Below are positions 14,052 to 37,561 of a stretch of 64,000 bases of DNA, one piece after another (position 1 is the stretch's first letter; the number at the start of each line of letters is the position of its first letter). Origin of the DNA: Caldilineaceae bacterium (lineage in GTDB: Bacteria; Chloroflexota; Anaerolineae; Caldilineales; Caldilineaceae); contig JAJEBF010000014.1 of NCBI GenBank assembly GCA_022824025.1, positions 496,001 to 560,000 of the forward strand, written 5' to 3'. The notes below the pieces were generated by a model. The model saw only the letters and a list, made by a program, of their open reading frames with translations. It was not told the origin of the DNA and ran no database searches. A program made the position numbers and the translations under genes.

Positions 14052-16145
14052 ATGTTTCGAACCCCCTCTAGCCGGTTGAACCCTTCCGCAAGGACCATTT
14101 GGGTCTTGCTCCTGGCGTTCGCGCTCATAGTCTCAGCCTGTGGCGGCGGCGAGCAACCCGTTGCTGAGGAAGAGCCCGCCCCTGCCGAGGAAGCAGCCTC
14201 TGCAGATGACGCCGAAGACGCCGGCGACGCGATGATGTCCGCCAAAGAAGCGCCTCAGCTCGCCGAAATGGTCGCAGCCGGAGACCTGCCCCCCCTCGAT
14301 GAACGCATCCCCATCGACCCTCTGGTCATCGACCTGCCCTGGATCGAGATCGGCCAGTACGGCGGCACGCTCAAACGTACCACGACAAGTACGAACTTCC
14401 AGGATACCTCTCAGTATATGTACGGCCATTCGCCACTGCACTGGCAGAACGGCGGTGCCGATGTGGGTCCCGGCCTGGCGCGAGCCTGGGAGAGCAACGC
14501 CGACGCTTCCGAGTGGACTTTCTACTTCCGCGAAGGAACCAGGTGGTCAGACGGACAACCATTCACCGTCGACGACATCATCTTCTGGTGGGAAGATATG
14601 GCCGCTAACCCGGACCATCCCATGGCAATGCCCGCTTGGACGCTCGTAGGCGGCCAGCCTATGACCGCTGAGAAGATCGATGACTACACCATTCGGTTCA
14701 AATTCGCATCCTCGGCGCCCCTGCTGGAAAGAGAGCTCGCCGCATTCGTTAACGGTGGCATCTCCTATAACTTTGGACCCTATCCGCGCCACTATCTGGA
14801 ACAGTTCCATCCAAATTACTCTGACGCCGCCGACTACGAAGAGTTCACCGAAAAACAGGACTGGTGGATAAACCCGGACCGGCCTGTCTTGAATGCCTGG
14901 ATGGTTGTCTCGCTTGAGCCCGGCAACCGTATGATCCTCGAACGCAACCCCTACTACTACGCCGTCGACACAGCCGGCAACCAGTTGCCATACATCGACA
15001 GTATGGAAGTATCGTTCGCCGAAAACGTCGAAGTGCTAAAGCTGCGCATCTTCAGCGGCGATGTCAACTTCCATGCCCACCCGCATCTCTCATTACGCGA
15101 TCTGGCGGTTCTGAAGGAAAACGAAGCAAACGGCGACTATCGTGTCCTGCTATGGGACAATGGCGCGGGTGGGGCCCCTGCCTGGGGCGTCAACTGGAAC
15201 AACCCCGACGACGCCAAACGAGAAATCGTTCGCACCACCCAGTACCGCCGAGCCCTCTCCCACGCCATGGACCGCGAGCGTATCCGCAAAATCACCTTCC
15301 TTGGCCTTGGCGGTGAGGCCAGCACCGGCACAATGTCGCCAAACTCTGCCCAATTCAACCGCTCGCAAAAAGGCCAGGACATGCTGGTTGCCTGGCGCGA
15401 GTCTGCCGTAACCTATGACCCAGACCTGGCCAAAAGCCTTCTCGACGAAATCGAAGTGACCGACCAGGATGGCGACGGCTTCCGCGACCTTCCCGATGGC
15501 TCGCCTCTGGAAGTGCGTATCGACTTCCCGGCCGGCAATACAGCCTTCATCGAAACCGCCGAACTGATGGTCGAGGATTGGAAGGCTGTCGGTCTCAATG
15601 CCTACGTCAATTCGATTCCCGGTTCCCAGGTCGGCGTCATGACCACGAATGCAACCTATGACATTCGCCTCTACGGCGGCGGCGCGCCCGACGGCCCCGA
15701 TCTCTTGACTTACCCCGCCTGGCTAATCTCTTACGGCAGCGGCGGACGTTGGGCCCCCTTGTACGGCGCTTGGATGGCTGCCGAAGGGACCCCCAAGGAA
15801 GGGAGTGAGTTGGACCTGGCTCCCCGTGACCGAACACCCCCGCGTGAAGAGATCCCAGTCGACGACCCAATATTCCGCATGTGGGAACTGTACAAGCAGG
15901 CCATCGCAGAACCGGATCTCGCAAAGCGCGATGAACTCACATTCGAGATCATCCAAATCCACATTGACGAAGGCCCCTTCCTATTGGGCGGCATCGCTGA
16001 CCCCCCCAATATCGTCATCGCCAGCAACCAGTTCAATAACGTTCCTACCAGCGACGATATCCCACTCGGCGGCTGGTTGGGCCCGTGGGTGCTCGGCATG
16101 CCCGGTGCAATGACCTATCCTGAAGTCTATTTCATCGCCGAATAG
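14052..16145 (+). CDS. ABC transporter substrate-binding lipoprotein, family 5 (Opp/Dpp type)
   Basis: 697 aa, larger than typical oligopeptide-binding proteins (about 550). AAAGGAG lies upstream of the ATG. A signal peptide ends in the lipobox VSAC near residue 34, followed by an acidic Glu/Ala-rich linker. SBP_bac_5 features include YFREGTRWSDGQPFTVDDI near residue 155 and a late LLDEIEVTDQDGDGFRDLPDG segment typical of the family. Family 5 proteins bind oligopeptides but also oligosaccharides and other solutes. Two permease genes follow, but no ATPase. A strong hairpin (16171-16206) lies just after the stop. Given the surrounding sulfatases and sugar dehydrogenases, an oligosaccharide ligand is plausible but unproven. 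Confidence 0.92.
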   Translation: MFRTPSSRLNPSARTIWVLLLAFALIVSACGGGEQPVAEEEPAPAEEAASADDAEDAGDAMMSAKEAPQLAEMVAAGDLPPLDERIPIDPLVIDLPWIEIGQYGGTLKRTTTSTNFQDTSQYMYGHSPLHWQNGGADVGPGLARAWESNADASEWTFYFREGTRWSDGQPFTVDDIIFWWEDMAANPDHPMAMPAWTLVGGQPMTAEKIDDYTIRFKFASSAPLLERELAAFVNGGISYNFGPYPRHYLEQFHPNYSDAADYEEFTEKQDWWINPDRPVLNAWMVVSLEPGNRMILERNPYYYAVDTAGNQLPYIDSMEVSFAENVEVLKLRIFSGDVNFHAHPHLSLRDLAVLKENEANGDYRVLLWDNGAGGAPAWGVNWNNPDDAKREIVRTTQYRRALSHAMDRERIRKITFLGLGGEASTGTMSPNSAQFNRSQKGQDMLVAWRESAVTYDPDLAKSLLDEIEVTDQDGDGFRDLPDGSPLEVRIDFPAGNTAFIETAELMVEDWKAVGLNAYVNSIPGSQVGVMTTNATYDIRLYGGGAPDGPDLLTYPAWLISYGSGGRWAPLYGAWMAAEGTPKEGSELDLAPRDRTPPREEIPVDDPIFRMWELYKQAIAEPDLAKRDELTFEIIQIHIDEGPFLLGGIADPPNIVIASNQFNNVPTSDDIPLGGWLGPWVLGMPGAMTYPEVYFIAE

Positions 16146-16170
16146 CGCATGACAGGCTGATCACTGCAAC

Positions 16171-16206
16171 GGGAGAGTGGAGCAGAGAGATCTGCTCCAC
16201 TCTCCC
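16171..16206 (+). promoter_or_regulatory. Hairpin between binding-protein and permease genes
   Basis: Perfect 15-bp stem (16171-16185 with 16192-16206), extendable to 16 bp by an A-T pair that closes a GAGA (GNRA-type) tetraloop. There is no T run after it, so it is more likely an mRNA-stabilising or partial-termination element keeping binding-protein message in excess than a full terminator. Confidence 0.7.
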
Positions 16207-16320
16207 GCCTTGTTGCCAAGCACGCAGTCTCAGAAAATGCGGGAAGATCCACTTTATATCCGCTCTCAAGAACTTGCGGCAAAGTAATTTTCAATTCAAC
16301 TTGCCGCTTGGAGTTTGTTC

Positions 16321-17304
16321 GTGCAGAGATTCATCCTCTCCCGTTTCCTCTATATGCTGGTCACGATGTTCTTCGTCTCGATTGTAGGCTTCGTGATTAT
16401 CAATCTGCCGCCCGGTACATACTTGGACGTCTATCGCGCACAGCTGGAAGCGCAAGGGACCAGGACCACCGAGCGCCAGCTTGAAGCAATTGTCCGCCAA
16501 TACGGTCTCGATCAGCCAGTCCCCGTGCAGTATTGGAAGTGGGTATCCGGATTCGTTCGAGGCGACTTCGGCCGCTCCTTTGCCTATAATAAGGATGTCA
16601 ACGAACTGATCTGGGAACGGCTGACGCTCACGATGCTGATATCTGTTTCGACTCTAATCGTCACCTGGCTCATTGCCATCCCAATCGGCGTCTATTCGGC
16701 GACACACCAATACCAGGCCAGCGATCACTTTTTCACAACCGTCGGCATGGTTGGCCTCTCCATCCCTAATTTTCTACTCGCTCTCATCCTGATGGTAATC
16801 GCGGCAATGGTCTTTGATCAGTCCGTTGGCGGGCTCTTTTCGCCAGAATATGAAGACGCCCCCTGGAACGTCGCCAAACTATGGGACCTCCTGAAACATA
16901 TGTGGATCCCGGTGCTTGTCGTCGGCACCTCAGGCACAGCCGGGCTTATCCGCATGATGCGCGGCAATCTTCTCGACGTGCTCAAAATCGCCTATATAAC
17001 GTCTGCACGCGCCAAAGGGCTCCCTGAACGGCGCGTGATTCTGGTCCACGCAGTGCGCAATGCCATCCACCCTCTCATCATGATCCTGGGCACGAGCCTG
17101 CCCCAAATTATCTCCGGAGCCACCATCGTTTCGATGGTACTCAGCCTACCCACCACAGGGCCCCTCTACTTCAACGCGTTGCTCCAGCAAGACATGTATC
17201 TGGCTGGCACCTTTCTCGTTTTTCTGGCCGGGTTGTTGGTAATCGGCAATTTCCTGGCTGACATCCTTCTCATCTGGGTCGATCCCCGAATCCGTTACAC
17301 CTAG
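16321..17304 (+). CDS. ABC transporter permease, DppB/OppB family
   Basis: 327 aa from GTG 16321, chosen because GGAG (16310-16313) lies seven bases upstream; a TTG two codons earlier has poor spacing. An N-terminal membrane span is followed by the conserved LPPGTYLDVY periplasmic segment and further spans. The inner-membrane-complex loop ITSARAKGLPERRVILVHA (EAA-type) docks with the ATPase. It ends with the VDPRIRYT motif typical of DppB proteins. It pairs with the next permease (two-base gap) and the upstream binding protein. No DppD/DppF ATPase is encoded here. Confidence 0.93.
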   Translation: MQRFILSRFLYMLVTMFFVSIVGFVIINLPPGTYLDVYRAQLEAQGTRTTERQLEAIVRQYGLDQPVPVQYWKWVSGFVRGDFGRSFAYNKDVNELIWERLTLTMLISVSTLIVTWLIAIPIGVYSATHQYQASDHFFTTVGMVGLSIPNFLLALILMVIAAMVFDQSVGGLFSPEYEDAPWNVAKLWDLLKHMWIPVLVVGTSGTAGLIRMMRGNLLDVLKIAYITSARAKGLPERRVILVHAVRNAIHPLIMILGTSLPQIISGATIVSMVLSLPTTGPLYFNALLQQDMYLAGTFLVFLAGLLVIGNFLADILLIWVDPRIRYT

Positions 17305-17306
17305 AC

Positions 17307-18440
17307 ATGGCGACAAGCGCTACTTCAGTCGATATTCTCTCCAGCGAGGAGGCCCCGCAATCCGCGGCAATCTCACCTGCCCGGCTGATTGGCCGCCGCT
17401 TCCTCCGCAATCGGCTTGCCATCGGCGGCGGTGTCGTCCTCTTCCTCCTCTACATGTCCGCCCTGTTTGCCGACTTCATCGCCCCGATTCCCTTCACCGA
17501 CGTCCACGAAGACTACGTTTTCGTTCCGCCCCAGCTGCCCCGCTTCCGCGACGAACAGGGTACTTTCCACCTGCGGCCCTTCGTCTATGGCCTGGAAAGC
17601 GAACTCGACATGGACACGTTCCGTTTTGTGTATGAGGAAATAAAAGACGCGAAGTATCCTATCAAGTTCTTTGTCAAGGGGTACGAATACAAGCTGTTTG
17701 GACTCATCCCCTTTGATCGCCACCTCTACGGAGTGGACGAACCGGGCGTCTTCTACCTCTTGGGCAGCGACGATTTGGGCCACGACATGGTCGCCCGCGT
17801 CTTCATGGGGGCAAGAATTTCTTTGACGATAGGGCTAGTCGGCGTTATCCTCACCATCATCTTCGGCGCCACGCTCGGCACCGTCTCCGGCTTCTACGGC
17901 GGCGGCATCGATACCTTGATTCAGCGCATCATCGAATTCCTGATGTCTTTCCCCGCCATTCCTCTGTGGGCTGCCCTCGCCGCGGCCATGCCCCCAAACT
18001 GGTCCCCTTTACAACGCTTCTTTGCCATCTCAGTGATTCTATCCCTTATCGAGTGGACAGGCCTTGCCCGGCAGGTCCGCGCTAAGGTACTGTCTTACAG
18101 GGAAATGGAATACACGCTCGCTGCCAGGGCCGCGGGCGCCTCCGACTCTCGCATCATATTCCGCCACATGCTCCCAAACGCCTTCAGCCACATCATCGTC
18201 GTCGCCACGCTCGCCATACCCGGCATGATCCTTGCCGAAACCGCGCTCAGCTTCCTGGGCCTTGGCATCCAGCCTCCCCAGACCAGCTGGGGCGCACTCC
18301 TCAAGCAGGCCCAACTCGTCAGTGTCCTCCTTCAGCAGCCATGGCTTCTGATCCCCGCCTTCTTCGTCATCGCAGCCGTCCTCACCTTCAATTTTGTCGG
18401 CGACGGACTCCGCGACGCGGTCGACCCCTACTCCCTTTGA
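17307..18440 (+). CDS. ABC transporter permease, DppC/OppC family
   Basis: 377 aa, longer than the usual 280-330. Between the first membrane span (about residues 38-55) and the conserved LLGSDDLGHDMVARVFMGAR block there is an extra segment of about 85 residues, probably extracytoplasmic. DppC marks follow: the EAA loop LAARAAGASDSRIIFRHMLP and ALSFLGLGIQPPQTSWG, then FVGDGLRDAVDP near the end. The gene starts two bases after the DppB-type stop, so translation is probably coupled. The periplasmic insertion may contact the unusually large binding protein, which is inference. Confidence 0.93.
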   Translation: MATSATSVDILSSEEAPQSAAISPARLIGRRFLRNRLAIGGGVVLFLLYMSALFADFIAPIPFTDVHEDYVFVPPQLPRFRDEQGTFHLRPFVYGLESELDMDTFRFVYEEIKDAKYPIKFFVKGYEYKLFGLIPFDRHLYGVDEPGVFYLLGSDDLGHDMVARVFMGARISLTIGLVGVILTIIFGATLGTVSGFYGGGIDTLIQRIIEFLMSFPAIPLWAALAAAMPPNWSPLQRFFAISVILSLIEWTGLARQVRAKVLSYREMEYTLAARAAGASDSRIIFRHMLPNAFSHIIVVATLAIPGMILAETALSFLGLGIQPPQTSWGALLKQAQLVSVLLQQPWLLIPAFFVIAAVLTFNFVGDGLRDAVDPYSL

Positions 18441-18571
18441 ATGATCTGTAAAGTGCCTTCGAAGTCGGATACGGTCTTTGTCTCTGTGTTCGGGCATCGA
18501 TTCTTTCGCAGCGCCGTTGTGTCTTCATACAATGACTGCGGTCTCGGCAGACCGTGCCCAACCAGTATGCT

Positions 18572-18637
18572 GAAGAAGGCAATGTCTACGCTACCGGCTA
18601 CCAGGACGGCGCCCTCTAGATCCCGACAGAGAAATAG
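18572..18637 (+). pseudogene. Fossil C-terminal tail of a discoidin-GSDH gene
   Basis: These 22 codons translate EEGNVYATGYQDGAL, a stop, then IPTEK and a final stop. Aligned without gaps to the end of the 579-aa paralog at 23937-25676 (EEGNLYVTGYQTGAIYLITEN), 13 of 21 residues are identical and the final stop falls at the same place; the Tyr codon has become TAG. No further homology is visible upstream. It is a remnant of another copy of the tandem family, lying before the first intact member. Confidence 0.75.
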
Positions 18638-18727
18638 GGCGCGGCAATATTTCGCACCCCATCGACTGAAGCCGCTAGTCCAATGACCAAAACTGACAGA
18701 AGATACGCCGTTGGCCCGATAGAGTCC

Positions 18728-20473
18728 ATGACATCCTCAACAGTTCTATTCCGAATCCTCATGATTGCGCTTGCAGCTCTGCTTGCGATCGCTTGTTCGT
18801 CAGCGGAAGAGAATCCGCAAGAAGTCCATGGCGCCGCCGACGCCCCCTTCGAAGGCGCCCGGCTGACCATCACCATGTCTCCCGCCGAACCGCCCTACTC
18901 TCCTGCCAGACACGGCCTCCCCCGCGGCGAAAACATCGCGCCTTTGGCCTCCGGGCTCGCCTACATCCGGGGCCCCGAAGGCCACCTTGTCGTCGATCCG
19001 GAAGCCTCCCTGGCAATCGATGGCGACCCGGATACGATCTGGAGCGCCAAACAACCCGCGCCCCAATGGTATTCCATCGTCCTGGACCAAACCTACCTCG
19101 TCAACAGAGTGGACATGGTGATTACGCAAGCGCCCCCTGGCCCCACAACACATGAGATTTGGCTGGGGCACGGCGCCGGCATGCGAACCTTTTACAAGCG
19201 CCTGGAAGATGTCCACACCGAGGACGGTCAGGTCCTGGCCGTCCCCATCGATCCTCCCCAGGCCATCAACGAAGTCCTGATTCTGACCCTGCACAGCCCA
19301 AGCTGGGTCGCCTGGCGTGATTTCCGCATCTTCGGCGCGCAACCCGCACCACCCGTCGCCCAGGACGCTCCTCCTCCTTTTCAAGTCGCCGAACTGGTCA
19401 CGGGGCTCGACTACCCCGTCCGCGTAACCCACCCTGGCGACGGCAGCGGACGCATCTTCATCGTTGAGCTGCCTGGCCGAATTCGGGTCGTCAACGAAGA
19501 CGCCCTGAGCGAAATTCCCTTCCTCGACATCACCGAGCGCGTAAACTGCTGCGAGGGCGAGCGCGGCATGTTCGGTTTGGCATTTCCCCCCTCCTACCCC
19601 GAAACCGGCCGCTTCTACGTGAGCTACACAGACAAGCGGAACGCAACCACCATCAGCCGCTTCTCCATCTCAGAGGACCCCAATCGCGCCGACGAAACCA
19701 GCGAAGAAATACTCCTGACCATCGACCAGCCCCACGAAAACCACAACGGCGGGCACCTTGAATTCGGCCCACAGGACGGCTACCTCTATATCGGCAGCGG
19801 AGACGGCGGCCTCCCCCGCGATCCCGAAAACAGCGGCCAATCCACAAATACCCTGCTGGGCAAGCTCCTCCGTATCGACGTCGAATCCGGCGAACTGCCT
19901 TACCGGGTGCCTGCCGCCAATCCCTTCACCCGCAACCAAGAATACCGCCCGGAGATTTGGGCGCTGGGCCTTCGCAATCCCTGGGGATTTGCCTTCCACA
20001 AGGAGACAGGCGACCTCTATCTGCCCGACACCGGCAACTTCAAGCGCGAGGAGATCAACTATCAACCGGCCGGCAGTGCAGGAGGCCAGAACTACGGCTG
20101 GCCTATCATGGAGGGCAGCATCTGTTTCGAACATGACGTCCTCACCTGCAACGCTGCCGGCCTGGCCTTGCCCATCGCCGATTACGACCACACACAGGGA
20201 TGCGCCATCGTCGGCGGAGCCGTCTACCACGGCGACAGCCATCCAGGCCTGAACGAGGCCTTCATCGTCGCAGACTTCTGCACGAGCGCCATCTGGGGGA
20301 TATGGCGCTCCGAAGAATCTGCAGTCAAAGGCAGAACAACCCTCTGGCGCAGTCAGCTGCTGGCGTCAGCCGGCCTGCCCATCAGCAGCGTAGGTTCCGA
20401 TGAAGAGGGCAATGTATACTTTACAATCCACGCCGAAGAGAACGGCGCCGTCTATACCCTTGCCCAACGATAG
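18728..20473 (+). CDS. Lipoprotein with discoidin-like and PQQ-type glucose/sorbosone dehydrogenase domains
   Basis: 581 aa from ATG 18728; an ATG 15 codons upstream is in frame but only the downstream start gives a compact signal peptide ending in lipobox AIAC (Cys23). Residues about 70-204 resemble a discoidin/F5-8C carbohydrate-binding domain (ASLAIDGDPDTIWSAK, PSWVAWRDFRIFG). Residues about 217-581 form a GSDH six-bladed propeller: NHNGGHLEFGPQDGYLYIG with the proposed catalytic His339, GLRNPWGFAF (Arg416-Asn417), and the late DYDHTQGCAIVGGAVYHG block also seen in HHIP-like proteins. The NCCEG cysteines suggest disulfides. Such proteins oxidise sugars with PQQ outside the cytoplasm; the exact substrate is unknown. 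First intact member of the array. Confidence 0.9.
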   Translation: MTSSTVLFRILMIALAALLAIACSSAEENPQEVHGAADAPFEGARLTITMSPAEPPYSPARHGLPRGENIAPLASGLAYIRGPEGHLVVDPEASLAIDGDPDTIWSAKQPAPQWYSIVLDQTYLVNRVDMVITQAPPGPTTHEIWLGHGAGMRTFYKRLEDVHTEDGQVLAVPIDPPQAINEVLILTLHSPSWVAWRDFRIFGAQPAPPVAQDAPPPFQVAELVTGLDYPVRVTHPGDGSGRIFIVELPGRIRVVNEDALSEIPFLDITERVNCCEGERGMFGLAFPPSYPETGRFYVSYTDKRNATTISRFSISEDPNRADETSEEILLTIDQPHENHNGGHLEFGPQDGYLYIGSGDGGLPRDPENSGQSTNTLLGKLLRIDVESGELPYRVPAANPFTRNQEYRPEIWALGLRNPWGFAFHKETGDLYLPDTGNFKREEINYQPAGSAGGQNYGWPIMEGSICFEHDVLTCNAAGLALPIADYDHTQGCAIVGGAVYHGDSHPGLNEAFIVADFCTSAIWGIWRSEESAVKGRTTLWRSQLLASAGLPISSVGSDEEGNVYFTIHAEENGAVYTLAQR

Positions 20474-20566
20474 CGCAGGCGCCCATCCGCCTAAGCCCCA
20501 GGACATACGGCAAAGGCACAATGAGCAGGCCAACCTCCCCACCAGCCAAAGAGTTCTGCTGACCCG

Positions 20567-23500
20567 ATGAAGAGTACGTTCGGCCTTCTGCTTATCGCCT
20601 TTTCCAGCTTGCTTGCATCTGCATGTGAAACTGCGGCCCGAAACGGCCAGTCCCCCCAGTCGCCTGCCCCGATCGCCAGCGTTTCCGTCTCGCTTTCTCC
20701 TGCATCGCCCTGGGCCGGCTCCCCGTTCGGGTCCCAACCCTTCGGAGAAAACGTTGCCCTGAAAGGCTACGCAACTGGCTCGACGAGAGACGCAACCGGG
20801 CTGCTGACTGTCGATGCCGCCACCGCGCATCTGGCAATTGACGGCAGTTCCGCCTCAGTGTGGAGCGCGCAACAACCTGCGCCCCAATGGTTCTCCGTCG
20901 CGCTTGACGATCTCTACCTCGTCAACCGTATCCAGCTTGAGGTAACGCAGGCCCCCGCCGGTCCAACGACGCATCAAGTCTGGTTGGGCAATGGCTCCGG
21001 TACGAGGACACTGTTTGCCAGTCTCGCCCGGGTCCACACGGACGACGGGCAGCTTCTCGACATAGAACTGGACCCGCCCCGGCCCGTCAACGAGGTCTTC
21101 ATCGTTACCCTCGATAGCCCCAGCTGGGTCGCATGGCGCGAATTAAAGGTGTTTGGCCACCCGCTTACACAACCGCTTGCCTCCGCCAGCCAGCCTCGAC
21201 TGACCCTCCAACCCTTCGCCTCCGGACTCCACATGCCCGTCCAGGTCACCCACGCCGGAGACCAGAGCGGGCGCCTCTTCGTCGCCGAAAAAGAAGGTCG
21301 CATCCGCATCGTCTACAACGGTGAAACGCTCGAAACCCCCTTCCTCGATATCTCCTCCCGCGTCCTCTGCTGCGTACACCGCGGCCTGATCGACATTGTC
21401 TTTCCTCCCTCGATGGCCGCCCCCGGCCACTTCTACATCAGCTACACAAACCTGGACGGCCATACCGTCATCAGCCGCTTCCAAATCGCACAAGATCCTG
21501 ACCGGGCCGACCCCGACAGTGAGGAAGTGGTCCTCAAAATCGAGCAGCCCGCAGAACATCACAACGGCGGACACATGGAATTCGGTCCAAACGACGGTTA
21601 CCTCTATGTCTCCAGCGGGGACGGCGGCCTCTTCAGCTATCCCGATAACCCGGCGCTGGAAAGTGACACACTGCTCAGCAAGCTGCTGCGCATCGATGTC
21701 GAATCGGGCGCCAAACCGTATCGCGTTCCTGACACCAATCCCTTCATCCAGGCTGCCGGTTACCGCGAGGAAATCTGGGCGTTGGGGCTCCGCAACCCCG
21801 GTAACTTTGCCTTTGACGCGCAGACTGGTGACCTCTTCATTCCCGATTCCGGAAACCGGCGACGTGAAGAGATCAATTTCCAGCCCGCCTCCAGCCCTGG
21901 AGGAGAGGACTACGGCTGGTTCAGAATGGAGGCGAATCTCTGCTTCGACAACTTTGTCGTGCCCTGCAGCGCCGACTCTCTGACGCTGCCCGTCGTCGAG
22001 TATGACCACTCACAGAGCTGCGCCGTCACTGGCGGCGCCGTATACCGCGGCCGCGAATTTCCCTCCCTCCAAGGGCTCTTCCTCTTCGCCGACCTCTGCA
22101 GCGGCCGGATCTGGGGCCTCAAACGACCTGATTCCGCCCACCACCCGGGATGGCAGAGCACACTCCTGTTACGCGCGCCCATCTCGATCAGCAGTATCGG
22201 CCAGGACGAAGTCGGCAACCTGTACGCCGCCAGCTTTGACGACGGCGTCCTCTATCAACTCACCCAAAGATCCGACACCCTGGCGAACGATCCAGCCTCT
22301 CGCCAAAACGTCGCCCTCCGGGCCTCAGGTCGAGCCTCAGTTCCCGGCGACGGAATTTCCCTCGCGCTCGACGGGGATCCGGCAACCGCCTGGCGTGCTG
22401 GCCTGCTCCCGCCGCAATGGTTCTCGGTCCTCCTCGATGACCTCTACCCCATCGATCAGATTGAGCTTGTCTATTCCCCCGACACGCATGGGCCCGTAAC
22501 GCTGGAACTCTGGCTCGGCAATGGATCCGGCGTCCGCACGCTGTACAAGCGTCTCAGCAATGTCCACCCCAACCGCGATAGTCTGCTATCCATCCCCATC
22601 GACCCCCCGCAAAGAGCCAACGAACTCCTGCTGATCGCCCTGCACGGCCAGTCTGAAGTCGCCTTGCACGAGGTCAGAGTCTTCAGCGCCCCAACCGCCC
22701 CCTCGCGAGCGGAAAACCCGTTCCCGCAGGTGCGCCTCGCTCAGACCGCGGCCGGCCTGGACCTTCCTGTGCTGATTACACACGCCGGCGACGGAACCGA
22801 CCGAATCTTCATTGCTGAACAGAAAGGACGAATCCGGATCCTGCAAGATGGCCGTCTTCTGAAACAACCCTTTCTTGACATCTCGGATCACGTCGCTTGC
22901 TGCGGAGAACAGGGCCTTTTCGGCCTCGCATTTCCGCCCTCCTACGCCGATAGCCAGCGCTTCTACGTGAGCTATTCAAATCTCGATGGTGACACCGTCG
23001 TCAGCCGTTTCAAGACCTCAGACGAACCCGACATCGCTCGCCGTGACACCGAGGAGGTCCTGCTGACCCTCGCCCAGCCCGACAAGATCCACAACGGCGG
23101 CCACCTGTCGTTCGGCCCACTTGACGGCTCCCTGTACGTCGGCAGCGGCGACGGCGGAACATTCCGCGATCCTGAAAACCTCGCCCAGAGACCGGACACG
23201 CTGCTGGGCAAAATCCTCCGCATCGATGTGGAATCGGGCGCCCACCCTTACGCCGTCCCCACAGACAATCCCTTCAACCAGACTGAAGGCTTCCGTCCGG
23301 AGATCTGGGCTCTTGGTCTGCGCAACCCTTGGGGCTTTGCCTTTGATAGCGGGACGGGCGATCTCTACATCCCCGATGTGGGAGGCAGCTCGCGCGAAGA
23401 GGTGAACGTTCAGACCGCCTCCGACGCAGCCGGAAGAAATTACGGCTGGGCCGTCATGGAAGGAAATACCTGCTTCCCGCATGACTCTCTCGTCTGCAAC

Positions 23501-23815
23501 GCCGCAGGCCTCGCCTCGCCCGTCGCCGAGTACGACCACGCTCAAGGCTGCGCCGTCGTCGGCGGAGCAGTCTACAGGGGAGCCGCATTTCCTGCCTTGC
23601 AGGGCGTCTTCCTCTTCGCCGATTTCTGTCGCGGCGCCATATGGGGTCTCAAGCGAACCGGCCGCGACGAAACCGGGCAAGCCGAATCAAGCTGGCAGAG
23701 CGCGCGCCTCGCCAACGCCGGCTTCCCCATCAGCAGCATCGGCCAAGACGAAGCCGGCAACGTCTACGCCGCCGGCTACCAGGATGGTACAATCTACATG
23801 ATCACGTCGCGATAA
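20567..23815 (+). CDS. Double-unit discoidin-GSDH lipoprotein (two complete tandem units)
   Basis: 1082 aa. A signal peptide with lipobox ASAC (Cys20) precedes two full copies of the unit found singly in its neighbours. Unit 1 has a discoidin-like domain (about 55-200) and a GSDH propeller (about 210-565). Unit 2 has a discoidin-like domain (about 575-710) and a propeller (about 720-1080). Both propellers keep HNGGHxxFGP, GLRNP and EYDHxxxCAVxGGAVYRG. Unit 1 lacks the Trp after GLRNP (GLRNPGNF) and has CCVHRG where the others have CCxE; unit 2 looks canonical. The arrangement fits an in-frame fusion of two tandem genes, the second having lost its signal sequence. PQQ-dependent sugar oxidation at the cell surface is inferred from the family. 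Confidence 0.9.
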   Translation: MKSTFGLLLIAFSSLLASACETAARNGQSPQSPAPIASVSVSLSPASPWAGSPFGSQPFGENVALKGYATGSTRDATGLLTVDAATAHLAIDGSSASVWSAQQPAPQWFSVALDDLYLVNRIQLEVTQAPAGPTTHQVWLGNGSGTRTLFASLARVHTDDGQLLDIELDPPRPVNEVFIVTLDSPSWVAWRELKVFGHPLTQPLASASQPRLTLQPFASGLHMPVQVTHAGDQSGRLFVAEKEGRIRIVYNGETLETPFLDISSRVLCCVHRGLIDIVFPPSMAAPGHFYISYTNLDGHTVISRFQIAQDPDRADPDSEEVVLKIEQPAEHHNGGHMEFGPNDGYLYVSSGDGGLFSYPDNPALESDTLLSKLLRIDVESGAKPYRVPDTNPFIQAAGYREEIWALGLRNPGNFAFDAQTGDLFIPDSGNRRREEINFQPASSPGGEDYGWFRMEANLCFDNFVVPCSADSLTLPVVEYDHSQSCAVTGGAVYRGREFPSLQGLFLFADLCSGRIWGLKRPDSAHHPGWQSTLLLRAPISISSIGQDEVGNLYAASFDDGVLYQLTQRSDTLANDPASRQNVALRASGRASVPGDGISLALDGDPATAWRAGLLPPQWFSVLLDDLYPIDQIELVYSPDTHGPVTLELWLGNGSGVRTLYKRLSNVHPNRDSLLSIPIDPPQRANELLLIALHGQSEVALHEVRVFSAPTAPSRAENPFPQVRLAQTAAGLDLPVLITHAGDGTDRIFIAEQKGRIRILQDGRLLKQPFLDISDHVACCGEQGLFGLAFPPSYADSQRFYVSYSNLDGDTVVSRFKTSDEPDIARRDTEEVLLTLAQPDKIHNGGHLSFGPLDGSLYVGSGDGGTFRDPENLAQRPDTLLGKILRIDVESGAHPYAVPTDNPFNQTEGFRPEIWALGLRNPWGFAFDSGTGDLYIPDVGGSSREEVNVQTASDAAGRNYGWAVMEGNTCFPHDSLVCNAAGLASPVAEYDHAQGCAVVGGAVYRGAAFPALQGVFLFADFCRGAIWGLKRTGRDETGQAESSWQSARLANAGFPISSIGQDEAGNVYAAGYQDGTIYMITSR

Positions 23816-23936
23816 TCCGCCGACCAGCCCGCCCATCCCGTCGGCCCCGTCCCGTTACGGAGCGGAGCCCCGACCATACGCATTCAACTCGTCTCACCGA
23901 AGAATTCGCCGACCGGCCCCATCCCATGAGCCTCCT

Positions 23937-25676
23937 ATGAAAAAAGCGCTCGCGTTGATAGGCCTGCTTTTCTTACTGATGCTAACCGCCTCCTGCTCCC
24001 CTCGCACGGAGTCTGAATCCCCGACCCCCATCGAAACTAACACCAGGCCGCCCGCGGTAACGCCGACCCCCACACCCGCGCCCACACAAACACCTGTGCC
24101 CCCGCCCTCTCCCACCAACACCGCCGCCCCCACTCCAGCGAGTCCAAATGTCGCCCCATTGGGTACGGTTCGAGTCTCTTCCGGGGAAGACGGCGTCCAG
24201 TTCGCGATCGATGGCGACGCCGAAACGGTCTGGAGCGCACAGGACCATCCCGCCCAGTGGATTTCGATCGCCCTCGACGGCATCTATCTCGCCGAACGCA
24301 TCGAGCTCGTAGTGGCGCAGGCGCCCCCCGGACCAACGACCCATGCCCTCTGGTTGGACAACGGCTCCGGCGTGCGGACGCGGTACATACAGCTCACCGA
24401 TATCCACACAGAGGACGGGCAGACGCTTACCATTGATATCAATCCGCCGCGGCCCGTCAGGGAACTCCTCGTTCAAACTCTCGACAGCCCCAGTTGGGTC
24501 GCCTGGCGCGAGGTCAGAATTTTCGGACTGCCCCTCTCTCCAGAGGATGAGAGTGGTTCGTCCCCCCCTCTGAAACTCGAAAAAGTCCTTGACAATCTGG
24601 TTCTCCCTGTGCAAGTCACCCACGCCGGCGACGGCAGCGGCCGCATCTTTGTCGTGGAGCAGCAGGGCCGTATCACAGTCCTCAACAACGGCGCCGACAG
24701 TGGTTCCCTCTTCCTGGATATAACGGATCGAGTAAACTGTTGCGAGGAGCGCGGACTGTTCAATGTCGCATTCTCCCCAGGCTATCCCGCGGCCAATCGG
24801 TTCTATCTGAGCTATACGAACGAGCTTGATGACACGGTGATCAGCCGCTTCGCCGCCACCGCTGACCCCGACGTCGCCGATCCCGACAGCGAGGAAATCC
24901 TTCTCACCATCCCCCAACCCCACGAAGTGCATAACGGCGGACGCCTCGCCTTCGGCCCCCGCGACGGATACCTGTATGTCGGCATGGGCGACGGGGGAAG
25001 CGACGGACGCCCTGCCCACTTTCCCCAGGACCCGGCCCTTCTGCTGGGAAAGATACTGCGTATTGACGTCGAGTCCTCAACCCAGCCCTATGGAGTCCCC
25101 GCCGCCAATCCCTTCGTCGCCGACGACCGGTTCCGTCCGGAAATATGGGCCCTTGGATTCAGAAACCCTTGGGGCTTTGCCTTTAACCACCAGACCGGCG
25201 ACCTCTACATCCCGGATACCGGGCACAACGATCGAGAAGAGCTCAACTTCCAGCCCGCGGCCAGCCCGGGCGGCGAAAACTATGGATGGCCCACGATAGA
25301 GGGCACCCGCTGCCCCAGGTTTGAAGACCTGCCCGTGCCCTGTCGCCAGGCCGGCGTCTTCACCCCTCCCGTAGCAGAGTATGACCACACGCGCGGTTGC
25401 GCGATCGTGGGCGGCGTAGTCTACCGCGGCAGCCAGTTTCCCGACCTCAAAGACTCCTTCCTCTTCGCCGACTTCTGCCGCGGCGACATCTGGAGCCTCA
25501 CGAAACCGGACACAACCCAAAGCGCCGGGAATGATGAATTGGACCATTCCAACTGGCACAGCGAGATCGTCCTGAAGGCATCTGTCCCCGTCAGCAGCGT
25601 CGGTGAGGACGAAGAGGGCAACCTCTACGTCACCGGCTACCAGACGGGCGCAATCTACCTGATTACCGAGAATTAG
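23937..25676 (+). CDS. Discoidin-GSDH lipoprotein
   Basis: 579 aa. The signal peptide ends in lipobox TASC (about Cys21), followed by a Pro/Thr-rich linker of about 45 residues (PTPTPAPTQTPVPPP) that would hold the domains away from the membrane. A discoidin-like domain (about 68-195: FAIDGDAETVWSAQDHPAQW, SPSWVAWREVRIFG) precedes the GSDH propeller (about 210-579) with HNGGRLAFGPRDGYLYVG, GFRNPWGFAF and EYDHTRGCAIVGGVVYRG. The GGH of other copies is GGR here. The extra Cys pair in TRCPRFEDLPVPC is shared with the next gene, so these two are the closest relatives in the array. Role: extracellular PQQ-type sugar oxidation, inferred. Confidence 0.9.
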   Translation: MKKALALIGLLFLLMLTASCSPRTESESPTPIETNTRPPAVTPTPTPAPTQTPVPPPSPTNTAAPTPASPNVAPLGTVRVSSGEDGVQFAIDGDAETVWSAQDHPAQWISIALDGIYLAERIELVVAQAPPGPTTHALWLDNGSGVRTRYIQLTDIHTEDGQTLTIDINPPRPVRELLVQTLDSPSWVAWREVRIFGLPLSPEDESGSSPPLKLEKVLDNLVLPVQVTHAGDGSGRIFVVEQQGRITVLNNGADSGSLFLDITDRVNCCEERGLFNVAFSPGYPAANRFYLSYTNELDDTVISRFAATADPDVADPDSEEILLTIPQPHEVHNGGRLAFGPRDGYLYVGMGDGGSDGRPAHFPQDPALLLGKILRIDVESSTQPYGVPAANPFVADDRFRPEIWALGFRNPWGFAFNHQTGDLYIPDTGHNDREELNFQPAASPGGENYGWPTIEGTRCPRFEDLPVPCRQAGVFTPPVAEYDHTRGCAIVGGVVYRGSQFPDLKDSFLFADFCRGDIWSLTKPDTTQSAGNDELDHSNWHSEIVLKASVPVSSVGEDEEGNLYVTGYQTGAIYLITEN

Positions 25677-25793
25677 CCCCATGAAATGCCGGTATCCCCC
25701 CAAATGGTTATGCTTGTCCCGCCCAATGCGCGGCCCCATCGCAGAGGCAACCTTCCCACATCTGGCCGCTCTGCGCCCCAGAACACACGATCA

Positions 25794-27521
25794 ATGAAAT
25801 ACGCCAACCTGCTCCCCGTCCTGCTCCTGAGCCTTGCCGCCCTTACCGCCTGCGCGTTGCAGCCACTGCCCGAACCGACCTCCCCGGCAACCCAGGTTAC
25901 GCCAAACGCAGGGTATACCGGCGCCCCAACAAGCACGCCCCCAGCCGAGCCGCACCCTGTGCCAGCTACGCAGCCTCCCATGCCCAGTCAAAACGTCGCG
26001 CTCGCGGGCGTGTGGCGCGCCTCCGAAGGCGAATAAACAGCCCACTTGGCATTTGACGACGATCCCGATACCAACTGGAACGCGAAAAACCTCGCCGCCC
26101 AGTGGATCGCCGTCACGCTCGACGATATCTACCTTGTGGACAGAATCGAGCTCGTCGTGGCCCAGGCGCCGGCTGGCCCGACAACGCACCTGATCTGGCT
26201 CGGCAACGGTTCGGGCGTGCGCACGCGAGACACACGCCTTACGGACATCCATACCGAGGACGGTCAAACCCTGATAGTTGACTATGACCCGCCCCGTCCG
26301 GCTGATGACCTGCTTGTCCATACCCTCGAAAGCCCCAGCTGGGTCGCCTGGCGCGAAGTAAGAGTGTTTGGCGCTCTGGCCAATGAAGTTGACGTGAGCA
26401 GCGAACCGCACCTATTGAAAACGGAACGAATCATCGAGAACCTGGTTTTGCCGGTGCAGGTCACCCATGCTCGCGACGGCAGTGGGCGTCTCTTCATCGT
26501 CGAGCAAGAAGGGCGCATTCGCATCTTCAAGGACGGAGTGGAAGGCGATCGACCATTTATCGACATCAGCAGCCAAATCACTTGCTGCGGTGAAAGCGGG
26601 CTTATGAACATAGCCTTCTCGCCAAGTTTCCCATCCAACCGCCAGTTCTATCTGAGCTACACAGATCGCGCCGGAGACCTCGTTGTCAGCCGGTTTACCG
26701 CCGCCACCGACCTCGCAACAGCAGACCCTGCCACAGAGGAGATACTGCTGACCGTCAGCCAGCCCCACCACGATCATAACGGGGGCAGCATCTCCTTCAA
26801 CCCCCTCGACGGATACCTCTACGTGGGAATAGGCGACGGCGGCAGTGACGATCTGCCTCCCCACGAAAGTCAATTCCCGGATCATTTTCTCGGCAAGATC
26901 CTCAGAATCGACGTGGAATCATCCCAGTCCCCTTACAGCATTCCACCTGGCAATCCCTTTGTCGATGTCGACGGCTACCGCCCGGAAATCTGGGCTTCAG
27001 GCCTGCGAAATCCGTGGGGGTTCGCGTTCGACCCGCAAAACGGTGACCTCTACATCCCCGATACCGGCCACAGTCAACGTGAGGAAGTGAATTTCCTGCC
27101 ATGGGATCGCCAAGGGGGCGACAACTACGGCTGGCCGACAATCGAAGGCACGCGATGTCTGAAGATTCCCGGCATGCCTGTCCCTTGCCACCAGGCCGCC
27201 GTTTTCACGCCGCCGGTCGCCGAATATGATCGCGCCCGCGGCTGCGCGGTGGTGGGCGGGGTCGTCTATCGCGGCGCCGAGTTTCCTCATCTCGATGGCC
27301 GCTTTCTCTTCGCCGATTTCTGCCGGGGAGATATTTGGAGCCTTCATCAGCCCCCTCCACCCGAAGGTCAAAGTGCGGGGCCTGTCAGCCGGGAGGGATG
27401 GCGCGCCGACCTGGTCCTGAAAGCCTTCAACATAGTCAGCAGCATCGGAAAAGACGAAGACGGAAACCTGTATGTTGTCGTCTACCAGCCTGGCGCTATC
27501 CTCAAAATCTCACGCAACTGA
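25794..27521 (+). pseudogene. Discoidin-GSDH lipoprotein gene interrupted by an in-frame stop
   Basis: ATG 25794 starts a lipoprotein signal (MKYANLLPVLLLSLAALTAC) and Pro/Thr linker, then SQNVALAGVWRASEGE, then TAA at 26034-26036 (codon 81). The same frame continues for 495 more codons with the rest of the discoidin-like domain (AFDDDPDTNWNAKNLAAQW) and a complete GSDH propeller (HNGGSISFNPLDGYLYVG, GLRNPWGFAF, EYDRARGCAVVGGVVYRG). A single base change accounts for the break. The remainder is free of frameshifts, so the event is recent, a sequencing error, or bypassed by readthrough. An internal TTG at 26046 could start a protein without a signal peptide. Function if expressed: as for its paralogs. 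Confidence 0.85.
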
Positions 27522-27739: not shown

Positions 27740-29269
27740 ATGACGCAAACGAAACGCCCCAACATCCTCTGGTTCTGCACCGACCAGCAAAGGTATGACA
27801 CCATTCACGCATTGGGTAATCCCCATATCAACACACCCAACCTGGATAAGCTCGTCGAGGAAGGCGTCGCCTTTACACACGCCTTCTGCCAGAGCCCCAT
27901 CTGCACGCCAAGCCGGGCCAGCTTTCTCACCGGCCGCTATCCTGCTAACGTCCGCGGCTGTATGAATGGCAACGAAGAGTGGGGTGAGGGCGCCCCTCTC
28001 GTCACTGCCCTGCTGGCGGAGAGCGGCTACGACTGCGGTCTAAGCGGAAAGTTCCATCTGGCCGGCGCCAGCGGACGCGAAGAGCCCCGCCCAAAAAATG
28101 ACGGCTATCGAGTCTTCCACTGGAGCCATGATCCCGAAGACCGCTTCCCCTCGGGCCACGCCTACGCCGACTGGCTGGCCGCGCAAGGATACTCCCTGCG
28201 AGACCTGAGAGAGGACCCGGCCTCGATCCCGCCGGAACTGCACCAGACCACCTGGTGTACCGACCGCGCCATCGACTTCCTGTCTGAAAAGAGGCGTAAG
28301 GGCCCCTGGCTGATGAGCGTCAACGTCTTCGATCCCCACGCCCCCTTCGACCCGCCACAGGAGTATCGCGATCGTTACGACTCGTCGAAGATGCCCGCTC
28401 CGCTGTTCCGTAAGACCGACCTCACTACACAGCCGGAGATCCCCGGCGACTTCCAAAACCTGTCCCGTCCGCCAGAGGAGTTCAATGCCCGCGAAGTGAT
28501 CGCCGCCTACTACGCCATGATCGAGCTGATCGATGAAAACGTGGGGCGGCTGCTGGAAGCGCTCGACGAAACGGGACAGCGCGAAAACACCGTCATCATC
28601 TTCACCAGCGATCACGGTGAAATGCTGGGAGACCACGGTCTGCTGCTAAAGGGCTGTCGTTTCTACGAAGGTCTGGTTAGAGTGCCGCTGATCATCAGCT
28701 GGCCGGGCCAATTCCCACTGCAAGAGGAGCGGGAATCCGAAGACAATCCTGAGGACATCGGTTCCGTAAGTGATCAAGAGGACACTGCTGAGACATCCAA
28801 AATCAGCGCGCTCGACGACGATTTGCCCACCCCAGCCGGCTTCGTCAGCAACGCGCTGGTGGAGTTGGTCGACATAGCGCCTACGCTCCTCGAGCTGGCC
28901 GGCCTGCCCGTCCCGCTACGCATGCAAGGCCGCTCCCTGCTTCCTATTCTACGCGGAGAACGCCTGCCCGACCACCACCGCGAATTCGTCCGCTGTGAGT
29001 TCTACCAAGCTCTCAATCCCGATGTGCCAGGCCGCGAACAGTACGAAGGCAGCTACGCCACAATGTACAGGGACGCCCACCACAAAATCGTCGTCTACCA
29101 CGGGCACGAACACGGAGAACTTTACGACCTGGAAAACGACCTCGGCGAGTTCGACAACCTGTGGAATGACCCCGACCACGCTGAACTTCGTTTCGACCTG
29201 ATGCGCCGCAACTTCGACGCACTTGCCTTTTCCATCGATCCGGGACCGCCGCAGGTGACGCCCTTCTGA
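27740..29269 (+). CDS. Type I sulfatase (formylglycine-dependent)
   Basis: 509 aa. The ribosome binding site is nearly perfect (AAAGGAGGAG, 27725-27734), suggesting high expression. TDQQRYD lies at residues 14-20, and the nucleophile motif QSPICTPSR places formylglycine at Cys55. FTSDHGEMLGDHGLLLKG gives the second metal block. An acidic insertion of about 40 residues (near 330-370, rich in Glu/Asp/Ser) splits the usual link between the PLIISWPG strand and the VDIAPTLLEL segment and looks like a surface loop. No signal peptide is seen. It ends the plus-strand block and faces the GH-like operon convergently. Substrate unknown; a sulfated carbohydrate is likely from context. Confidence 0.93.
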   Translation: MTQTKRPNILWFCTDQQRYDTIHALGNPHINTPNLDKLVEEGVAFTHAFCQSPICTPSRASFLTGRYPANVRGCMNGNEEWGEGAPLVTALLAESGYDCGLSGKFHLAGASGREEPRPKNDGYRVFHWSHDPEDRFPSGHAYADWLAAQGYSLRDLREDPASIPPELHQTTWCTDRAIDFLSEKRRKGPWLMSVNVFDPHAPFDPPQEYRDRYDSSKMPAPLFRKTDLTTQPEIPGDFQNLSRPPEEFNAREVIAAYYAMIELIDENVGRLLEALDETGQRENTVIIFTSDHGEMLGDHGLLLKGCRFYEGLVRVPLIISWPGQFPLQEERESEDNPEDIGSVSDQEDTAETSKISALDDDLPTPAGFVSNALVELVDIAPTLLELAGLPVPLRMQGRSLLPILRGERLPDHHREFVRCEFYQALNPDVPGREQYEGSYATMYRDAHHKIVVYHGHEHGELYDLENDLGEFDNLWNDPDHAELRFDLMRRNFDALAFSIDPGPPQVTPF

Positions 29270-29335: not shown

Positions 29336-31072
29336 TCAGCCAGGCGTCTGATACGTGAGATCATACGCTCCTAACCTGCGCAGCGGAGTCGACGCCGCCC
29401 CCAGGCTCGGCTCCCCCGCGCGGCGCCATGCCTCAATCTCCTCCCGATGACCCAGCCGTCGCAGAGCGTTCCAGCTTGGCCCGTAATGGGCGCGCCCGCT
29501 CGGCCCGGCAGAGTCCCAAAAGAAAAGGTTCTCAACCCCCTGTCCATACAGTGAGGACGCCTTGCGCCGAAAAGCCTCCGCCGGCATATGCCGCGGCATC
29601 ACATTGAGCGCAAGCTCGCACTTCGTGCCCGCCACCAGGTCAACAAAGTAGCCGACCGCCTCGTCGTCCTCCCAGGCCGTCCCCATACTGTCGAGCTCAG
29701 GCAGATCCGTGTACGGGATCAGCGTGTCGACCAGCTCCTCCTCGATCCAACCCTCGAGGTCGAGCCCGTTGAGGAGATTTTCCTCTCGGTTCAGCACACA
29801 TGCTGAAACCAGAATCCGCTCTCGGCCCTGCTCCCTGGCCAGCGCATCGAGCGACGCCCGCAGCGACCGGTGAAACTCCGTCAGCGCGATGCTCCTGTAG
29901 GCCAGCCAGCGGGGATCATCGTCCGGCAGCTGCCGCGGATCCTCTCCATGCGCCTCGATGAACCCCTCCACCAGCGGCGGGTCATAGTCCACCAGCGGCG
30001 GCCGCCGGTTGTAGAGAATGCATACACCATCGATCGGATGTTGAGCTGTCTCAAGCAGTAGATCGATGACGAATTGGCGCGTATCCCCGAACGCGTACGA
30101 GAGCCGCGGCGCAGTCCTGCCATCCTTGCCCACCATCCGCAAATCCGGCCGCGAAAAGTAAAGACTGCCTGCATTCCACTGCTCCAGAGGCGGTGGGTAG
30201 AAAAACCCGGCCGGCCGGTAACTGGCATGAAAACTCAGCCCCATCTCGTGCGCCGCCTCCAACGCCACCTCCAAGGGATCGAGTTTCTGATCGCGAAACG
30301 TGCGCCAGGTCTCCGCATGCAGTCGATCCCCCCGCCGGTCAAAGTCCTCGACCTCATCGCACGTGGCCAGACGGCCGACCTCTCCCAGATAATACATCGA
30401 GTCCCCGGCGCCGCACTCCCAATAGAGTCGCGTAAAGTCCGTATGCCTGTAGGGCTCGATCTCATTGCGCACTGCCTCTTCGGTCGCCGTCCCGTATAGG
30501 AAGAGATAGCCGTGCGCGTCGTTGTGCGCAAATAACCTGCGCGTGTCTGTCCGCTGCCGCTCATGCTCCATCTCCCCGACCTGCTCCGTCGACATCGGCG
30601 CCAGCTTCACGTAGGCAACCTTCGTCCGCTGGCAAGAGACCCCCGAAGGCGCATCCTCCCCGCCCGTCGGCGTGCAGACCTGGCGAAGCGACAACGTCTG
30701 CCCCGTCAGCTCCGCCTCCTTCCAATACAGCTCGTAGATGCTGTGCCCGTGCGGATTCGACGCCGCCCAGTCCGGCCCCATGTTCAAACGACTGAAGCAG
30801 GGGTCCCCTTGGAGCTTCACCTCAACTGAGCCAAGCGTCCGGTGGTCCGGGTACACGCCAATGAAGATCCTGTGCCATCCTCTCCGATCCAGCCCGATAG
30901 ACACCTCCGGCGCGGCCGTCTCCTCGCCTGCGCTGAGCAGGTTTCCACTCATCTCCGCCGTCTCGTACGGCTGCACGTGCCATGCCCGCCGCCTTGGCGC
31001 AGCCGAGAGCGCGCTCTCCGGCTGGCAACGGCCCAGGTCGGTGATGTATACCGCAGCGTCTCGTTCAGCCAT
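29336..31072 (-). CDS. Glycoside-hydrolase-like TIM-barrel protein (GHL10/DUF187-like), paralog 1
   Basis: 578 aa; GGAGGTG lies just before the ATG, inside the end of the upstream permease gene. An N-terminal beta-rich region (about 1-175: YITDLG, WHRIFIGVYPDH, ELYWKEAELTGQ) is followed by a barrel-like region in which the order of motifs recalls family-10-like hydrolases: a YRPAGFF strand, SYAFGDTRQFVIDLL, HPIDGVCILYNRRPPL, then VSACVLN and ALNVMPRHMP. No signal peptide, so probably cytoplasmic. It closes the operon whose first gene is its paralog (35810-37474), with an importer and an aldolase between. Both likely act on the imported sugar, which is inference; the catalytic residues cannot be assigned. 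Confidence 0.6.
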   Translation of the reverse strand: MAERDAAVYITDLGRCQPESALSAAPRRRAWHVQPYETAEMSGNLLSAGEETAAPEVSIGLDRRGWHRIFIGVYPDHRTLGSVEVKLQGDPCFSRLNMGPDWAASNPHGHSIYELYWKEAELTGQTLSLRQVCTPTGGEDAPSGVSCQRTKVAYVKLAPMSTEQVGEMEHERQRTDTRRLFAHNDAHGYLFLYGTATEEAVRNEIEPYRHTDFTRLYWECGAGDSMYYLGEVGRLATCDEVEDFDRRGDRLHAETWRTFRDQKLDPLEVALEAAHEMGLSFHASYRPAGFFYPPPLEQWNAGSLYFSRPDLRMVGKDGRTAPRLSYAFGDTRQFVIDLLLETAQHPIDGVCILYNRRPPLVDYDPPLVEGFIEAHGEDPRQLPDDDPRWLAYRSIALTEFHRSLRASLDALAREQGRERILVSACVLNREENLLNGLDLEGWIEEELVDTLIPYTDLPELDSMGTAWEDDEAVGYFVDLVAGTKCELALNVMPRHMPAEAFRRKASSLYGQGVENLFFWDSAGPSGRAHYGPSWNALRRLGHREEIEAWRRAGEPSLGAASTPLRRLGAYDLTYQTPG

Positions 31073-34841: not shown

Positions 34842-35810
34842 TCAACCTTCACCCTGCCGAATGCGCGGATCGGCCACCGCATACAGGATGTCCGCAGTCA
34901 GATTGCTGAACAGAACCAGCACTGCGGCGATGAACGTCAGCCCCATCAAAACAGGATAATCCCGCTGCGATATCGCCTGAATCGCCATGCGCCCCATGCC
35001 CGGCCACTGAAACATCGTCTCGATGATCACCGTGCCGCCAAACAGAATCGGCAGCCTCAACGTAACGATCGTGATCACCGGAAGCAGCGCGTTGCGCAGC
35101 GCATGCCCCACGACCACGCTCGTCTCCTTCAGCCCCTTCGCCCGCGCCGTCGTAACATACTCCTGCCCTAGCACCTCCAGCATGCCCGAACGCATATAGC
35201 GCGTCAGCCCCGCCGTCAGATCCAGCGACAAGATTACGCCCGGCAGAACCAGGTGATGAAGGTTGTCCAGCAAGGCCGGCGGCGCGTCGAATGCAACCGA
35301 GCGCATGCCGAAAGTGGGAAACCACCCCAATTTCAACGCAAAGACATAGAGCGCAAGAAGAGCCAGAAAGAAGGAAGGAATCGAGATCGAAAACAGAGCG
35401 AATAGCGTTAACAAATAGTCCCAGATTGTATATTGCTTCAGCGCCGCCAGCACCCCCAGACCGATTCCAAGCACCGAAGACGCAACCAGCGCAAAGCCCA
35501 TCAACTCCAACGTGGCCGGCAGCCGCACAGCAATGCGCCGCAGAACCGGTTCCCCCGTGTGATAGGAGTAGCCAAAATTGCCCCGCGCCAGCTGCCCCAG
35601 CCATATCGCGTAACGCACCATGATCGGCTTGTTCAGGCCCAACTCCTCCTTCAGCCGCTCAAGATTGGCCGCAGACATCTCCTCTTCCGGGTTGATCATC
35701 GCCATCACCGGGTCGCCCGGCGCCACGCTGATAAAGCTGAACGTGATCAGTGTGATGCCAAGTACCAGCGGAATCGCCAGCAGCAGTCTGTTTGCAATAT
35801 ACGTTGCCAT
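34842..35810 (-). CDS. ABC transporter permease, DppB/OppB family
   Basis: 322 aa from ATG 35810, which shares one base with the stop of the preceding gene (TGATG); an in-frame ATG four codons earlier lies inside that gene. Typical DppB features: an N-terminal span with ITLITFSFISVAPGDP, then the EAA loop TTARAKGLKETSVVVGHALR, and the C-terminal ADILYAVADPRIR. It pairs with the DppC-type permease at 31076-31975, although the aldolase and binding-protein genes lie between them. Confidence 0.93.
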   Translation of the reverse strand: MATYIANRLLLAIPLVLGITLITFSFISVAPGDPVMAMINPEEEMSAANLERLKEELGLNKPIMVRYAIWLGQLARGNFGYSYHTGEPVLRRIAVRLPATLELMGFALVASSVLGIGLGVLAALKQYTIWDYLLTLFALFSISIPSFFLALLALYVFALKLGWFPTFGMRSVAFDAPPALLDNLHHLVLPGVILSLDLTAGLTRYMRSGMLEVLGQEYVTTARAKGLKETSVVVGHALRNALLPVITIVTLRLPILFGGTVIIETMFQWPGMGRMAIQAISQRDYPVLMGLTFIAAVLVLFSNLTADILYAVADPRIRQGEG

Positions 35811-37474: not shown

Positions 37475-37561
37475 CTGAGGTTCCTCCCAAAAACTGGCCA
37501 ACCGCGCTTGAGGATCCTGAGGGGGACGGCGCAACGACCTTCTCTATCGCCGTCTGAACAG

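Follow-up and report, generated by a model that had tools for sequence, protein, structure and literature searches.

Introduction

Six-bladed propellers are known from sGDH of Acinetobacter (1CQ1), Asd/YliI of E. coli (2G8S), 3A9G of P. aerophilum and 3DAS of S. coelicolor, all of which have His144, Arg228, Asn229 and Gly247 in common. The His, Arg and Asn (H144, R228 and N229) are catalytic in sGDH, and E. coli Asd depends on exogenous PQQ. A propeller also occurs in HHIP, together with parts of its own (a CRD at the N-terminus, two EGF repeats at the C-terminus and a loop that binds Hedgehog); the propeller-EGF part of HHIP binds heparin and sucrose octasulfate (PMC8660895). Tight PQQ binding also occurs in the AA12 enzymes, through residues that differ in part (PMC6881789).

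This study concerns an array of propeller genes in a 64-kb stretch of DNA (the window; positions 496,001 to 560,000 of contig JAJEBF010000014.1) from a Caldilineaceae genome of 5.02 Mb in 61 contigs (G000). Many Caldilineaceae live in sponges. In sponge Caldilineae arylsulfatases are abundant, and degradation of host glycosaminoglycans has been inferred for them (PMC6306507); the present genome is not necessarily sponge-derived. These findings and the HHIP binding data support the setting of the array, not a mechanism.

Results and Discussion

Between 18683 and 27521 of the window, four ORFs on the plus strand hold five units, each consisting of a discoidin (F5_F8 type C) domain, hereafter FD, and a PF07995 propeller, hereafter GSDH; the array positions are named U0 to U4. 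U1 (18683-20473) is a 596-aa lipoprotein with its FD at 18932-19333, followed by a GSDH/HHIP-like propeller. U2a (20567-22297) and U2b (22298-23815) are the N- and C-terminal halves of one fused 1082-aa ORF (20567-23815), with FDs at 20750-21154 and approximately 22298-22684, each preceding a propeller. U3 (23937-25676), the unit for which an AlphaFold2 model was made, is a 579-aa lipoprotein with an FD at 24147-24524 and then a propeller, and U4 (25794-27521) is a lipoprotein of FD and propeller that carries one in-frame TAA and is otherwise open and under purifying selection. In a Pfam profile search PF07995 matched all five propellers far above its cut-off. Signal peptides with a lipobox-like cysteine begin U1, U2a, U3 and U4, the -3 position of the lipobox being relaxed in U1, U2a and U3 on direct reading; U2b, as the rear half of a fusion with U2a, lacks a separate signal peptide.

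These ORFs and Pfam matches, with a remnant at 18572-18619, bear out an earlier sequence-only reading that counted five propellers in four genes plus a fossil tail. In its proposed common order of lipobox, discoidin domain and propeller, an FD precedes each propeller, and a lipobox begins every unit but the fused U2b. The same reading had the units differing in their cysteines; the six propeller cysteines are in fact invariant in all five, and the units are therefore not distinguished by them. The in-frame TAA, which separates the U4 lipobox from the remainder of the unit, was absent from that account.

The FDs have the discoidin jelly-roll fold, as indicated by Pfam F5_F8 and by Foldseek, in which the top matches of the predicted structure (pLDDT 80, the N-terminal third being weak) are CBM32 modules bound to galactose or GalNAc. 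The F5_F8 score exceeds the Pfam cut-off in U2 only and falls below it in U1, U3 and U4; all five are recovered by an FD model derived from the units themselves. By sequence, the closest modules of solved structure are discoidin domains that bind chitosan. The motifs QAPxGPTTH and SPSWVAWRE recur across the FD paralogues, most of which keep both, whereas the FD of U2b (22298-22684) and its orthologues have lost both, a pattern suggesting that its binding face may have been lost.

The history of the units was examined in a tree of 93 rows, including 80 units of this genus and GSDHs from other lineages. The 80 units form one clade against the GSDHs of other lineages (support 100), and within it the units group by array position, with U1, U2a and U2b each spanning 12 species, U3 spanning 11 and U4 spanning 6. 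The closest relatives of the window units, found in G008 and G009, match them at 88-93% identity, and the window units are only 47-59% identical among themselves. An AU test rejected a single clade of the five window units (p-AU 3e-6). From the positional clades and the AU rejection it follows that the duplications are older than these species, and the idea that the window array expanded recently is rejected. Such an expansion is present in one relative, G004, with seven units that are 80-90% identical. G010 has no U2a-U2b, and in G015 and G010 some units fall outside the U3 and U4 clades. Overall, the family is an old, genus-wide set undergoing slow birth and death at one fixed locus, with an otherwise conserved core. 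The earlier proposal of repeated local duplication with divergence is thus upheld as to a single tandem-duplication family and contradicted as to recent expansion, because orthologues in sister species are closer to the window units than these are to each other.

The array is preceded by a C-terminal remnant of U0 (18572-18619, plus strand; 48 bases, 16 codons) that reads EEGNVYATGYQDGAL followed by a stop and represents the end of a propeller, the remainder of U0 having been deleted in this genome. At the corresponding place G008 has an intact U0 (L127, 4418-6100), confirming that the fossil tail is real. The alignment to G008 breaks at 18448/18572 in the window versus 4214/6038 in L127, such that approximately 1.8 kb in G008 is replaced by 123 bases here. 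G009 also has the deletion and aligns across the site without a break. The deletion is therefore common to this genome and G009 (L127, L128; window 18300-18800), yet the U1 and U4 branches of the 93-row tree place G008, not G009, beside this genome, with weak support; either recombination or a regain of U0 in G008 would account for this.

The in-frame TAA of U4 (26034-26036, plus strand) lies at the start of the FD, just past the linker, at a position where the G009 and G012 orthologues are open. U4 is interrupted by stops in three genomes (G000, G008 and G015), at three different codons and with two stop types, which makes stop-codon recoding unlikely. In comparisons of this genome with those most closely related to it, U4 has a dN/dS of 0.18-0.23, equal to that of the intact units; this rules out an old pseudogene, and the stops are thus recent changes, strain polymorphisms or assembly errors. 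Together with the U0 deletion, the U4 stops show that decay of the array, also proposed earlier, is real but modest.

In the sister loci that are long enough, the array follows the second permease gene (perm17; 86-97% identity) and precedes a sulfatase gene (78-94%); a solute-binding protein (SBP) and the first permease are encoded on the upstream side, and a GHL10-like gene stands on the downstream side. In the window these correspond to a family-5 solute-binding lipoprotein with two Opp/Dpp-type permeases (14052-18440, plus strand) directly upstream and a sulfatase (27740-29269, plus strand) directly downstream, both conserved in sister genomes. A second sulfatase (12524-13978, plus strand) precedes the SBP gene and adjoins it in those sister loci that reach that far, and a third lies at 10277, also upstream of the array. 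Most of the genus keeps the order of sulfatase, importer, array and sulfatase, which supports the link to sulfatases and an importer noted earlier; in G011 and G013, FD-GSDH genes stand outside this context. Sulfatases are common genome-wide (38 matches), but the three that lie here within 19 kb, at a position kept across genomes, exceed this background. All three have the C-x-P-S-R active-site motif and, as read from the ORF translations, no evident signal peptide, suggesting intracellular action.

Further downstream on the minus strand, two GHL10-like genes (29336-31072 and 35810-37534) stand around a second ABC importer and a DHDPS-family aldolase, and these genes are probably part of the catabolic locus of the array. 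G015 and G010 (L136, L137) have a duplicated downstream sulfatase, its copies separated by GHL10-like fragments, and the segment as a whole thus seems duplication-prone.

FD-GSDH genes also occur in this genome outside the array, on contigs C11, C46 and C60, and as a single lipoprotein gene in G060, from another Chloroflexota family; G100 has a related match. The genus is thus not alone in having this architecture. The C46 gene (L013, 4774-7257, minus strand) encodes a lipoprotein with two FDs before one GSDH propeller. On C39 (L012, 4601-6808 and 6795-8888, minus strand) is a tandem pair of GSDH propellers, fused to a C-terminal cytochrome c, which keep R228, N229, Q231, the HGP motif, R406 and R408 and have Gln in place of the catalytic His. 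The subfamily of the array propellers occurs in many phyla. In Planctomycetota (L067, L074, L086 and L094) it carries an extra N-terminal domain, PF06439 in L067 and alike in the other three; fusion to this 3-keto-disaccharide hydrolase hints that the propellers may act on or beside 3-keto sugars. A 3-keto-sugar route was rejected for the present genome, from which PF06439 is absent. The literature covered had nothing on discoidin with sorbosone dehydrogenase or on DUF1080 with sorbosone dehydrogenase.

The U3 model (pLDDT 89.6, pTM 0.91) is a six-bladed GSDH propeller, with Z-scores of 36-40 against 7CGZ, 3A9G, 2G8S, 1C9U and 3DAS. HHIP was its best Foldseek match, with PQQ dehydrogenases next, and profile searches scored human HHIP at 154 bits, E. 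coli Asd at 98 and sGDH at 56; VIA-align gave ties, at Z 39.7 (7CGZ), 39.2 (HHIP) and 38.9 (3A9G). The top rank of HHIP by sequence and by Foldseek, the binding of heparin and sucrose octasulfate by its propeller-EGF part (PMC8660895), the CBM32-like FD and the lipoprotein anchoring are all consistent with binding-only counterparts of HHIP, that is, adhesins or receptors that would tether a symbiont to sulfated host proteoglycans with neither catalysis nor feeding. We nevertheless regard this as rather unlikely, because HHIP has lost the Arg and Asn (to His and Asp) that the units keep, the propeller subfamily is spread over many phyla, and the fixed importer and sulfatase context suggests nutrition. 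The remainder of HHIP has no counterpart here: an FD occupies the N-terminus, and the chains stop with the propeller, leaving no room for EGF repeats.

The Pfam family is named for PQQ-type sugar dehydrogenases, and the sequence-only reading took the propellers for PQQ-type dehydrogenases. Site residues were read from an alignment with Asd, 2ISM, 3A9G and 7CDY and were stable in four MAFFT modes; the sGDH residue numbers were assigned through Asd motifs and known sGDH sites, rather than from an sGDH alignment. In the five window units and 49 relatives from many phyla, H144, R228, N229 and G247 are kept in 54/54 sequences, whereas K377, R408 and P248 are kept in none and R406 in four, none of them a window unit; only one Arg is invariant across the 54. 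In the window units the carboxylate anchors are replaced (K377 by C, R406 by P, S or I, and R408 by S), as is Q231 in all five (W or G), and the Ca2+/PQQ motif (Q/H)246-G247-P248 appears as T/S/V-G-N/H/G, with only the Gly kept. Asd, 2ISM, 3A9G, 7CDY and the C39 pair of this genome all have R406 and R408; at the K377 site the references differ from one another. Scores against TIGR03606 were 35-65 bits versus a curated cut-off of 434.55. A profile search found PqqC in 0/17 genomes of the genus and, applied likewise as a positive control, in 2/14 other genomes; PqqE (TIGR02109) gave only a weak sub-cut-off match, as in all 14 control genomes.

The site residues thus do not support PQQ dependence, being kept on the quinone side (His, Arg and Asn) and at Gly247 but replaced at Q231, Q246, P248 and the three anchors, and the PQQ label appears doubtful for these units. 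Since the units are not mutual closest relatives and some PQQ-site residues are missing, the two outcomes that the sequence-only reading had named as counting against it have in part come about. Because the PQQ-holding residues are incomplete in 54/54 sequences of a family so named, the label is directly testable.

It could still be argued that the units are surface PQQ sugar dehydrogenases, in which the FD would hold the glycan and the propeller would oxidise the sugar with PQQ taken from neighbouring microbes, electrons passing to a cytochrome. The GSDH fold, the Pfam and TIGR03606 similarity, the invariant quinone-side residues and the Z-scores of 38-40 between the U3 model and PQQ enzymes agree with this, and E. 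coli Asd likewise needs outside PQQ. AA12 has alternative PQQ anchors (PMC6881789), so the lost anchors do not prove lost PQQ. Set against these points are the replaced residues, the single invariant Arg, the low TIGR03606 scores, the lack of PqqC matches in the genus and the missing cytochrome domain, which the C39 pair has fused along with R406 and R408; on balance, PQQ oxidation is possible but doubtful.

The explanation that we prefer, and to which we give about an even chance as a whole, is that the array encodes surface glycan-capture lipoproteins feeding the importer, with a propeller that is not a canonical PQQ dehydrogenase. Beside the architecture, paralogue history, synteny, residue pattern and fold observed here, we infer a ligand, a surface location and a hand-over to the importer as follows. 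The exported lipoproteins would place a CBM32-like FD and a six-bladed GSDH/HHIP-type propeller on the outward side of the membrane, where they would capture carbohydrate, with fragments of sulfated glycans as the likeliest ligand, and pass it to the adjoining family-5 ABC importer; the sulfatases, having no signal peptides, would then desulfate the imported glycan intracellularly. The motif bound probably varies among the paralogues. As the polar pocket is kept (His144, Arg228, Asn229 and Gly247 being strictly conserved) and the PQQ carboxylate anchors are missing, the propeller would offer a sugar-binding, possibly catalytic pocket. Of the earlier suggestion of a surface sugar-oxidation module for sulfated glycans, the glycan setting is strengthened, given the conserved sulfatase and importer locus, and PQQ dependence is weakened. 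The sulfatase-rich genome overall and the VIA-align tie between PQQ enzymes and HHIP count against our explanation, as does the strict conservation of His, Arg and Asn, which suggests a pocket for chemistry and not for binding alone; family-5 SBPs also serve peptide import.

A bolder and improbable extension would be that a PQQ-free GSDH branch, misnamed as PQQ-dependent, exists in many phyla, its His-Arg-Asn pocket serving other chemistry or another ligand. Here it would have become a CBM32-fused, multi-copy surface system that binds and processes host sulfated proteoglycans, a bacterial mirror of glycosaminoglycan binding by HHIP.

Conclusions

The array is real and well conserved, and it is new as a multi-copy lipoprotein form of the GSDH/HHIP-type propeller with a CBM32-like domain. 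The fixed locus of sulfatases, importer and array provides a concrete, genus-wide candidate for sulfated-glycan uptake in these Caldilineaceae. With a deletion scar that can still be read, the array clearly exemplifies slow birth and death at a single locus.

Compared with sGDH and Asd-type enzymes, the units are without K377, R406 and R408 and have Q231 replaced by W or G, Q246 by T, S or V and P248 by N, H or G; they add an N-terminal FD, a lipid anchor and an invariant cysteine at the K377 position. Relative to the AA12 enzymes CcPDH and TrPDH, the fold is alike (Z approximately 32) at about 15% identity, and AA12 enzymes are likewise extracellular, have no K377 equivalent and, in CcPDH, are modular with a CBM; however, AA12 has an Arg at the C-9 carboxylate and added His/Arg anchors, and CcPDH has a cytochrome b domain. 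Of the AA12 PQQ ligands (R273, R430, R621, H539 and H560), the R430 equivalent appears to be kept, the comparison with CcPDH being one of overall fold. The FD resembles CBM32 and F5_F8 type C domains in fold and Pfam similarity, but is joined here to a propeller instead of a glycoside hydrolase and scores below the cut-off in U1, U3 and U4. The HHIP propeller remains the best sequence and Foldseek match of the units and has the His and the GDG motif in common with them, whereas the Arg-Asn pair, replaced in HHIP by H and D at R228 and N229, is kept throughout the array.
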